A DNA stretch of 64,000 bases from Rhodobacter sp. SGA-6-6. GTDB taxonomy: Bacteria; Pseudomonadota; Alphaproteobacteria; Rhodobacterales; Rhodobacteraceae. Shown here piece after piece: positions 3,091 to 4,985 of the stretch. Made by a program: the position numbers and the translations under genes. The notes under the pieces were generated by a model. That model saw only the letters and a list, made by a program, of their open reading frames with translations. It searched no databases and was not told the DNA's origin. How positions within the stretch are numbered: the stretch's first letter is position 1; each line of letters begins with the position of its first letter. The stretch covers positions 186,001-250,000 of the forward strand of contig NZ_JAAKGP010000007.1 in the NCBI RefSeq assembly GCF_011043545.1. Reading direction: 5' to 3'.

Positions 3091-3444
3091 ATGCAGGACC
3101 ACGTCGAGGGAACGCCGCTGATCAGGCCCTCCAGCACCGACCATCCGCTTTACGACAGCGTGGTCGAGGCCTGCCGCACCGTGTTCGACCCGGAAATCCC
3201 GGTGAACATCTTCGACCTCGGGCTGGTCTACACCATCGAGATCAGCCCCGAGAACGCTGTCGACATCACCATGACCCTGACCGCCCCCGGCTGCCCGGTG
3301 GCGGGCGAGATGCCCGGCTGGGTGGCCGAGGCGGTGGAGCCGCTGCCGGGGGTGAAGGAAGTCGACGTCCACATGACCTTCGACCCGCCCTGGGGCATGG
3401 ACATGATGTCCGACGAGGCCCGGCTGGAACTGGGGTTCATGTGA
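3091..3444 (+). CDS. MIP18/SufT-type Fe-S cluster assembly factor (DUF59)
   Basis: A 117-residue one-domain DUF59 protein. The family hallmarks are FDPEIPVNIFDLGLVY near residues 32-47 and a single Cys in LTAPGCPVAGEMPG, the residue thought to handle iron or the cluster in SufT/Cia2 proteins. These proteins help load Fe-S clusters onto client enzymes. An IscA/SufA protein lies 1.6 kb downstream, although two unrelated genes intervene. The ATG at 3091 was chosen because the family motif begins shortly after it and a purine-rich AGGA precedes it; the frame is open further upstream but that part is compositionally unlike protein. Gene symbol left blank because the Suf operon itself is not here. 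Confidence 0.9.
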   Translation: MQDHVEGTPLIRPSSTDHPLYDSVVEACRTVFDPEIPVNIFDLGLVYTIEISPENAVDITMTLTAPGCPVAGEMPGWVAEAVEPLPGVKEVDVHMTFDPPWGMDMMSDEARLELGFM

Positions 3445-3612
3445 GGCAAGCCTTGGGGCTTGCAATCCGCCTGTTCAAGCCAGCAGGCTTGCTGTTGGCC
3501 GATGCAAGGATTTTCCCTCGCCATCTCCGTCTCCATCAAGAGACAAGGCTTGATCCGGGCCAAATCAAGGCGTAAAGCTTGATTATCCCGTGATCAAGCT
3601 GGAGGGCTTGAT
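3445..3612. repeat. Six-unit array of CAAG-N8-CTTG dyads, 29-bp period
   Basis: The whole gap between the SufT-like stop and the SatD-like start is filled by six dyad sites with the form CAAG, 8 bp, CTTG. They begin (counting two flanking bases) at 3445, 3474, 3503, 3535, 3564 and 3593. Steps are 29, 29, 32, 29 and 29 bp. The last three have perfect 6-bp arms ATCAAG and CTTGAT; the third unit is degenerate (CTCG for CTTG). Spacers are not conserved, although most end in GG. The last copy covers the ribosome site (GGAGGG 3601-3606) and the ATG at 3611. I read it as a cooperative operator, probably for the helix-turn-helix protein encoded immediately downstream. Confidence 0.8.
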
Positions 3613-4267
3613 GTTTCCCTCGGCCATTGCCGTCCTGACGGGCGATCTCATCGGCTCCACCGGGCATCCGGCCTCGGCCACGGACAGCGCGATGCAGCGG
3701 ATCGCAGAGGCCGCCGTCGGTATCGCCGGCTGGTCCTCGGCCGCGGATCCGCGTTTTACCCGCTTCCGGGGGGATGGCTGGCAGATCTACCTCGAAGACC
3801 CCCAATATTGCCTGCGCGCCGCCCTGACCATCGCGGCCGCCCTGCGCGCCCATGATCCCGGCCTCGCCACGCGCCTTTCCATTGCGATCGGGCCTGCGGA
3901 GACTCTGGGCAGCACCGACCTTTCCGACGCGGCGGGCGAGGCGTTCCAGCTGTCCGGCCGCGCCTTCGATGCCATGCCGAAGTCGGGCCGCATCGCGATC
4001 ACCGGGACAGGCATCGGCGAACGGGACGGAATCATCGCCCGGCAGATGTTCGAGCGGACAAGCCGCTGGACCGCCGCCCAGGCCGAAGCGGTGGCGATCT
4101 ATCTTCATCCCGACAACCCGACCCTGCACGACATCGCACTCCGTCTCGGCATCACGCCACAAGCCGTGAACTATCGGCTGGGCGGCGGCGGGGCGGTCAA
4201 CCTGCGCAGCAACCTGCAACTCTGGGAGGAGGTGATCGCGCATGACCTCGCCATCGCCCATGGCTGA
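3611..4267 (+). CDS. SatD-family protein: cyclase-like N-terminus plus C-terminal HTH
   Basis: A 218-residue protein. The N-terminal region resembles a nucleotidyl-cyclase-type fold as in SatD proteins: VLTGDLIGS (Gly11-Asp12), FRGDGWQIY (52-60), RLSIAIG, then SDAAGEAFQLSGRAFD. The C-terminus has a helix-turn-helix (TLHDIALRLGITPQAVNYRL, 171-190) preceded by RWTAAQAEAV. I chose ATG 3611, not the in-frame GTG at 3590, because GGAGGG lies 5 nt before it. SatD is known from the acid-tolerance locus of streptococci, but its biochemistry is unsettled. The HTH together with the dyad array covering its own start suggests a ligand-responsive autoregulator. It overlaps the next gene by 26 bp, so the two are translationally coupled. 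Confidence 0.75.
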   Translation: MFPSAIAVLTGDLIGSTGHPASATDSAMQRIAEAAVGIAGWSSAADPRFTRFRGDGWQIYLEDPQYCLRAALTIAAALRAHDPGLATRLSIAIGPAETLGSTDLSDAAGEAFQLSGRAFDAMPKSGRIAITGTGIGERDGIIARQMFERTSRWTAAQAEAVAIYLHPDNPTLHDIALRLGITPQAVNYRLGGGGAVNLRSNLQLWEEVIAHDLAIAHG

Positions 4268-4985
4268 CACCCTCGCCGCCCTTCTCTTCGCCCATGTGCT
4301 GGCCGATTTCCTGTTCCAGACCGGATGGATGGTTGCGAACAAGCGCCGCCCGGCCGCGCTGGCGGCGCATGGAGCGGTGGTGCTGGCGACCGCGGCCGCC
4401 GCCACCGGGACGCTGACGCTGTCGCTGCTCTGGCTGGCGGCGCTGCATCTGGCGGTGGATGCCGGCAAGGCGCGGCTGGCGCCGGGGCTGGCCGCCTTCC
4501 TGGGCGACCAGGCGCTGCATCTGGCGGCGCTGGCCGCCTTGGCCCTCTGGCAGCCCGGGCTCTGGGCCGGCGGGCTCTGGTCCGGTTGCACCACCCTGCC
4601 GGCGCTGATGGCGCTGGCGGCGGGGTTCATCCTCGCCACCCGGGCGGGCGGCTTCGCCATCGGCCTGCTGATGGCGCCCTTCGCCCGCCGCCTGCCCGCC
4701 GACATCGCCGCCGAAAGTCTGCCCGGCGCCGGGCGGACCATCGGGCTGATGGAGCGCGGGCTGATCTTCGCCTTCCTGCTGATCGGCCAGCCCGAGGGCG
4801 TGGGCCTCTTGATCGCCGCCAAGTCGATCCTGCGCTTCGGCGCGGTGCGCGACGACCGGGCGCTGTCGGAATATGTCATCATCGGCACACTGGCTTCGGT
4901 CGGCTGGGCGCTGGCGGCGGGCTACGGCACGCTCGGCCTGCTGTCGCAGCTGCCGCCCATTGGATTTCCGCCGCTCTTGCCCTAA
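4242..4985 (+). CDS. DUF3307 multi-spanning membrane protein
   Basis: A 247-residue polytopic inner-membrane protein. The N-terminus ALLFAHVLADFLFQTGWMV is the DUF3307 signature (acidic and aromatic residues in the first helix), followed by about six further hydrophobic segments and KRRPAALAAHG in the first loop. The start at 4242 lies inside the SatD-like gene, preceded by a strong GGGAGGAGG 9 nt upstream. Adjacent SatD and DUF3307 genes recur in other phyla as I recall, so the pair is probably one functional unit, for example a membrane protein whose expression or activity is set by the SatD-like sensor. No enzymatic motif is visible and the function is unknown. Confidence 0.75.
   Translation: MTSPSPMADTLAALLFAHVLADFLFQTGWMVANKRRPAALAAHGAVVLATAAAATGTLTLSLLWLAALHLAVDAGKARLAPGLAAFLGDQALHLAALAALALWQPGLWAGGLWSGCTTLPALMALAAGFILATRAGGFAIGLLMAPFARRLPADIAAESLPGAGRTIGLMERGLIFAFLLIGQPEGVGLLIAAKSILRFGAVRDDRALSEYVIIGTLASVGWALAAGYGTLGLLSQLPPIGFPPLLP

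Follow-up and report, generated by a model that had tools for sequence, protein, structure and literature searches.

Autoregulation through several operator sites is already known, Ss-LrpB being one example. In type II toxin-antitoxin operons the regulator is encoded first and overlapped by its partner, and the multi-site autoregulatory operator is subject to conditional cooperativity. For Ss-LrpB of Sulfolobus, the available part of the published account describes dimers that cooperatively bind several regularly spaced sites at their own gene (PMC4046817). The satD gene has been associated with acid tolerance in a source whose available part mentions no operator, and in Streptococcus pyogenes, according to the available part of a further report, it is accessory (178 of 249 genomes) and yet essential in those strains that were tested by transposon mutagenesis (PMC11323703). 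No operator for SatD was found in the literature searched on SatD, cyclase-HTH regulators and phased-operator regulators, a search in which subscription journals were thinly covered.

The locus described here lies in the window (the whole stretch of 64,000 nucleotides that was analysed) and consists of six 20-bp dyads, which carry no strand of their own, between the end of a SufT-like gene (position 3444) and the ATG of a SatD-like gene (3611). Dyads 1 (3445-3464, GGCAAG-N8-CTTGCA) and 2 (3474-3493, TTCAAG-N8-CTTGCT) are exact CAAG-N8-CTTG sites, dyad 3 (3503-3522, TGCAAG-N8-CTCGCC) is degenerate with one mismatch, and dyads 4 (3535-3554), 5 (3564-3583) and 6 (3593-3612) all read ATCAAG-N8-CTTGAT. 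The first-pass annotation was right on the steps of 29, 29, 32, 29 and 29 bp between dyads and on the perfect 6-bp ATCAAG/CTTGAT arms of the last three, the first three having mixed outer bases (G or T). Its six copies of CAAG-N8-CTTG comprise five exact ones and, at 3505, CAAG-N8-CTCG, and its coordinates hold as starts of the 20-bp dyads but not as starts of CAAG, which begins 2 bp further on (3447, 3476, 3505, 3537, 3566 and 3595). Dyad 6 had been placed over the ribosome site and the ATG; it encloses the Shine-Dalgarno-like GGAGGG read from the sequence (3601-3606, forward strand), but ends at 3612 and so covers only the first two bases of the start codon at 3611. Simple tandem duplication, which the annotation had already rejected, was set aside as the origin of the array, as repeats are confined to the arms and the spacers between dyads differ. 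Exact CAAG-N8-CTTG occurs five times in the window against 0.41 expected, a count reached in 0 of 100 shuffles preserving base composition alone, and 42 times in the whole 4.29-Mb genome, where these five are the sole close group in the list of matches. The array falls into two halves (3445-3522 and 3535-3612) set 32 bp apart rather than 29, the outer base being T in dyads 4-6 and, in dyads 1-3, G at five half-sites out of six; the halves are perhaps an old and a renewed operator.

The SatD-like gene (3611-4267, forward strand; alternative in-frame GTG start at 3590 on the same strand in the sequence) is an open reading frame whose product of 218 aa combines a class III cyclase-fold domain with a C-terminal helix-turn-helix (HTH). 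The HTH had been assigned to the protein of the next gene; it is part of the SatD-like protein itself, and its recognition helix (residues 183-189, 4157-4177, forward strand) was located as a helix in the structure model whose residues covary with operator bases. The N-terminal domain (about residues 1-146, 3611-4048, forward strand) gave a fold match to class III nucleotidyl cyclases and contains the invariant Asp12 and Asp55. At the position that we take to be that of the transition-state Asn of the class III cyclase motif, none of 9 aligned sequences carries Asn, the motif and its placement being our assumption and the region having a pLDDT below 50; catalysis by the SatD-like protein appears doubtful. 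The Pfam model of SatD (PF16264) did not match the window protein, and it matched 5 of 11 SatD homologues from outside the Rhodobacteraceae family. When the window's group was compared by hhalign with an alignment of SatD homologues containing proteins recognised by PF16264, a full-length match was obtained (probability 99.9, E 5e-38, 203 columns). Since PF16264 is silent and homology nevertheless extends over the full length, the protein is referred to as SatD-like, a remote branch, and not as a member of the Pfam family.

A profile search identified SatD-like homologues in 84 of 394 genomes of the Rhodobacteraceae family, and these together with two more gave a family set of 86 loci, with no 40-mer within satD common to any two of them. 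The upstream neighbour in the window, a FeS_assembly_P (SufT-like) gene (3091-3444, forward strand; PF01883), is the usual one, being found in 78 of the 86. Downstream, a gene for a DUF3307 membrane protein (4242-4985, forward strand; PF11750, E 1.8e-11, 44.6 bits against a cut-off of 23) overlaps the end of satD. DUF3307 or a shorter relative adjoins satD in 97 of 99 loci, the exceptions being L083, at a contig end, and L107, which has no DUF3307. The two genes are also distributed jointly: the 15 plasmids with a DUF3307 match all fall within the 16 that carry SatD, and in a set of 40 related genomes all four complete DUF3307 matches fall in those with satD, one partial weak match lying elsewhere. 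Within the genus, satD is present in 2 of 13 genomes. In L109, L110 and L111 the next gene encodes a membrane protein that matches the DUF3307 profile built here over 117-136 aa only. In L107, satD is followed by an ErpA-like gene and preceded by a single clear dyad, which perhaps shows decay of the array after loss of the partner.

Arrays were scored as dyad pairs with four agreeing half-sites at lags of 27-31 bp, using a lenient score of 46 (the 99th percentile of 860 shuffles, again preserving base composition alone) and a strict score of 57, with two regions tested per satD locus and one per control window. The strict score was reached by 66 of the 86 family loci and by 4 of 1127 control windows from those loci. 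The lenient score was reached by 79 of 86 and 77 of 1127, respectively; when the window itself was cut into 638 overlapping stretches, array included, 103 of them also reached it. Seven loci fell below it (L060, L065, L073, L074, L087, L106 and L107), of which L065 has a dyad pair at 58 bp. When the lag was left free between 16 and 59 bp, the best value was 28-30 in 57 of the 86 family loci, 56-59 in 18 and another in 11; in L061, L070, L087 and L088 it was 25 bp rather than 29. Phased dyads in front of homologues, whose absence from relatives had earlier been named as refuting the proposed operator, are present in most relatives, so that this check does not refute it; the array is real and is conserved across most homologues in the family. 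A step of 30 bp is seen in nine of the eleven loci with GCAACC- or GCACCC-like half-sites (L071, L076, L084, L085, L086, L091, L096, L101 and L108), the other two having 28 (L041) and 29 (L102), and most other loci have 28 or 29. The dyads are kept in L103, where the satD frame lacks the HTH (the profile match stops at 154), perhaps a decaying or misassembled copy.

The feature is not limited to the Rhodobacterales. PF16264 matched 4 of 299 Pseudomonadota genomes (3 over the cut-off), a search with one PF16264-matched protein matched 5 of 100 genomes and added two further outside loci, and SatD was found on 16 plasmids, of which 9 records were scanned for arrays; the SatD of L111, used as a query against plasmids, returned no match. 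The resulting 15 outside loci are from Pseudomonadota apart from one Bacteroidota plasmid (L121), which also has phased dyads. With lags of 16 to 59 bp allowed, their best-scoring dyad pair had a lag of 28 or 29 in 15 of 15, its score never being reached by shuffles in 12 and being reached in 2, 1 and 3 of 50 for L119, L122 and L126. In this count L123 is represented by the satD-DUF3307 interval, its upstream stretch having no array; the pair taken as the operator of L125 (TCAACC type, lag 29) is the second-best, the best having lag 28; and the arrays of L110 and L120 can be read in two registers, one of which was picked by analogy. The outside half-sites were TGAACC, TGACCC, ACAACC, AATCACA, ATAGCC, GTAACC, TTAGCC, AATCAA and TCAACC. 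Overall, the half-site varies (TCAAG, GCAAG, ACAAG, GCAACC, ACAGGC, TTAGCC and others) while the spacing stays.

This variation was used to ask which protein residues follow the operator bases. One consensus half-site per locus was compared column by column with the protein, restricted to columns with no more than 20 percent gaps, for 78 of the 79 loci (the upstream match of L063 was judged to be chance and dropped); tests on a tree were carried out with 76 loci, leaving out L083, which lies at a contig end, and L103, whose helix is out of frame. Base 1, the outermost, had its best column at residue 183, with a mutual information (MI) of 1.04 of a possible 1.07 bits (z 26). Base 2 was best paired with residue 184 and base 4 with residue 185, and for base 5 residues 188 and 189 were the best HTH columns, behind R88, which lies outside the HTH and is perhaps a clade marker. 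Arg at residue 183 goes with G in 57 of 57 loci (including L083, unreliable as it lies at a contig end), Gln with A in 7 of 7 and Pro, Thr or Ala with T in 11 of 11, while the two loci with Lys have one A and one T and the L103 row has no readable helix. Arg-G and Gln-A are textbook contacts. Base 5 is C in 12 of 12 loci with Lys188 and in 3 of 64 with another residue there. On a tree built from the N-terminal part of SatD, a minimum of 8 changes is needed for base 1, and operator bases simulated along the tree reached the observed MI in 0 (residue 183), 0 (184), 1 (185) and 5 (188) of 20000 runs; on this poorly resolved tree the starred (well-supported) branches provide 1-3 independent pairs, most of which agree and none of which contradicts, a number insufficient for a sign test. 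The window protein carries Pro183, for which T is expected; because dyads 4-6 have T and dyads 1-3 mostly G, the rule fits the gene-proximal half only.

In the outside loci, compared by eye, Lys188 occurs with an inner CC in L109, L110, L111, L114, L118, L120, L123 and L124 (for L110 and L120 depending on the register chosen) and in the weaker L122, L125 and L126, with L119 agreeing loosely, whereas loci with Arg188 (L112) or Tyr188 (L121) have no CC at the inner end. L121 combines Asn187-Tyr188 with TCAAG, as does the window. Residue 183 was rejected as a universal code beyond the family, Arg183 being found with G in L118 alone and with T in the four others (L112, L121, L123 and L124), and Gln183 with A in L111 and L114 and with T in L122; the Lys188-C rule held. 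As the residue-183 rule fails outside but Lys188 agrees, SatD is supported as the partner of the dyads, with a code that appears to depend on context. The covariation of bases with recognition-helix residues indicates that the SatD-like protein very probably binds the array, and the reading of the dyads as protein-binding sites in the first-pass annotation is supported by conservation and by this covariation.

The position of the arrays was then related to the genes, with start codons picked automatically as the nearest in-frame ATG. Where satD and DUF3307 are coupled (gap of at most 10 bp), a significant pair precedes satD in 48 of 50 loci, and significant pairs between the two genes occur only at gaps of at least 45 bp, in 24 of 31 such loci, 8 of which have the downstream pair only. 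By this distribution DUF3307 lies downstream of an array wherever both are found and satD need not, so that the placement in front of the gene, first proposed for the SatD-like gene, holds throughout for DUF3307 and not always for satD. Upstream chains, of two to six dyads, were found in 69 loci, 50 of which have 6 nt or less between the end of the final dyad and the satD start. A match to TATAAT at 5 or 6 positions was present in 20 of 69 final dyads, in 7 of 69 of the dyads preceding them (Fisher p 0.009) and in 1 of 41 of those one place further upstream; Shine-Dalgarno-like bases were present in 6 of 69 final dyads. In the class with an outer T, to which the window belongs, the last dyad has Shine-Dalgarno-like purines in 5 of 12 and a -10-like hexamer in none. 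A sigma-70-like promoter was sought in the window's own stretch and none was found, so promoter occlusion is argued from relatives. Arrays before DUF3307 end within 6 nt of its start in 1 of 23 and have -10-like bases in 2 of 23; the promoter argument therefore rests on the upstream arrays.

Taken together, the array is likely to be a multi-site operator for the SatD-like protein through which satD and DUF3307 would be repressed. We infer binding with one SatD-like dimer per dyad, the recognition helix reading the half-site, and contact between neighbouring dimers with probably cooperative binding along the DNA, as suggested by a fixed step of 28-30 bp and unconserved spacers, and we infer repression rather than activation. 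The bound protein would block expression of satD and DUF3307 at the promoter or at the start of the message, given that upstream arrays usually reach the satD start codon, and a second array would serve DUF3307 in most loci with the genes apart. A step of 29 bp does not correspond to an integral number of helical turns, which was counted against the operator explanation; at about 2.8 turns, successive dimers would wind around the DNA. By analogy with Ss-LrpB, the SatD-like protein might instead bind the array and activate the operon, or do both depending on occupancy. Chains of two to six dyads extend well upstream of the start, and Ss-LrpB, in the available part of its description, regulates its own gene positively and negatively according to concentration (PMC4046817). 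This reading is unlikely, as in 50 of 69 loci the final dyad touches or runs into the start codon, a blocking position, and this dyad sometimes contains -10-like bases (20 of 69) or Shine-Dalgarno-like ones (6 of 69). Action of the dyads as RNA hairpins on satD translation or termination is highly improbable: each dyad could form a stem of 4-6 bp, dyad 6 contains the ribosome site and the stretch has two terminator-like stems against 0.4 expected, but one half-site is mostly common to the dyads of a locus, where RNA stems could differ from pair to pair, the bases of the half-site covary with residues of a helix that reads DNA, and the phase is nearly constant. That some other protein, a global regulator or a nucleoid protein, occupies the array is the least credible proposal; nothing specific speaks for it beyond the fact that the SatD-like protein was initially just the nearest candidate, and against it the half-site tracks the SatD helix from species to species, phased dyads go with satD in a second phylum and on plasmids alike, and no further cluster is present in the genome. 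The array is most likely a repressor operator.

What such an operator would be for is a more tentative matter. More speculatively, a nucleotide on the cyclase-like domain might release the repressor, and DUF3307 might be a costly or toxic output. The pair could form a toxin-antitoxin-like or anti-phage module in which SatD would keep a harmful membrane protein silent pending a signal, a proposal to which we give less than even credence. Consistent with it are the patchy and joint presence or absence of satD and DUF3307, the pair's location beside rop and mobA on a 3,770-bp plasmid (L125, E. coli pEC34A), the Pycsar-type cassette adjoining it on a Sphingomonas plasmid (L132) and the accessory yet essential satD of S. 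pyogenes, which fits an antitoxin, satD alone being considered in the available part of that report (PMC11323703). On the other side, the window pair matched no PADLOC family at E 1, a recognised defence cassette is absent around three other plasmid loci, the family locus mostly occupies a single chromosomal site, which most defence genes do not, and DUF3307 has no informative fold match. Against 11 outside SatD homologues PADLOC gave weak matches only (best 8.8e-5, mostly CARF/CasR-type models), NCBIfam nothing of use for the window pair, and PHROGs one membrane-protein family for DUF3307 and weak HTH matches for outside SatDs. A search of phage records with one SatD query found no SatD, a megablast of the pEC34A pair against E. 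coli genomes no match, a fold search with DUF3307 nothing informative, and the literature searched, with subscription journals thinly covered, no role for DUF3307. In L125 (3770 bp) and L126 (a Klebsiella plasmid of 4424 bp), satD-DUF3307 lies beside rop, preceded by a 29-bp dyad pair, with mobA or two other small genes as the further genes (the gene table may be incomplete). In L132 (7192-11643) the pair faces, tail to tail, genes for a cyclase and a Pycsar effector together with a cysteine-rich E2-associated gene, and a TIR-domain gene is nearby. The broadest reading, which we consider possible but rather unlikely, is that the SatD family are widespread nucleotide-gated repressors, each an HTH bearing a cyclase-fold sensor, that would polymerise on an operator phased at 28-30 bp, with a fast-evolving readable code, and silence a harmful DUF3307 membrane effector until a nucleotide signal (for example on envelope stress or phage attack) releases it.

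SatD and DUF3307 are named families lacking an explanation; the operator would give SatD a testable role as an autoregulating DNA-binding protein and tie it to the membrane protein under its putative control. If the S. pyogenes protein, accessory yet essential in the available part of that source, is likewise a repressor, its loss alone would be harmful and loss of the whole module would not. For one small HTH, the covariation provides a residue-by-base specificity table drawn from nature, in which the half-site has switched several times while the phase of 28-30 bp is nearly fixed. As far as our searches show, the literature describes no HTH regulator of cyclase fold whose operator is phased, co-evolves with it and occurs in two phyla. 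Compared with known systems, the SatD-like protein shares the two-part domain layout of the SatD family (PF16264), and 28/29-bp dyad pairs precede all four PF16264 loci examined, as at the window locus; from class III nucleotidyl cyclases such as Ma1120, Rv1900c, OaPAC and Cya2 it differs by carrying an HTH. Ss-LrpB, as far as the available part of its description goes, is likewise an autoregulator, with three juxtaposed sites, the window array also being regularly spaced before its own regulator gene, but is an archaeal Lrp-type protein with 15-bp boxes whose centres lie 20 bp apart at the single target for which a distance is given (PMC4046817). The partner in the locus described here, DUF3307, is a polytopic membrane protein, in which respect it differs from type II toxin-antitoxin operons, while with satD first, an overlapping DUF3307 and a putative multi-site autoregulatory operator the arrangement resembles theirs.
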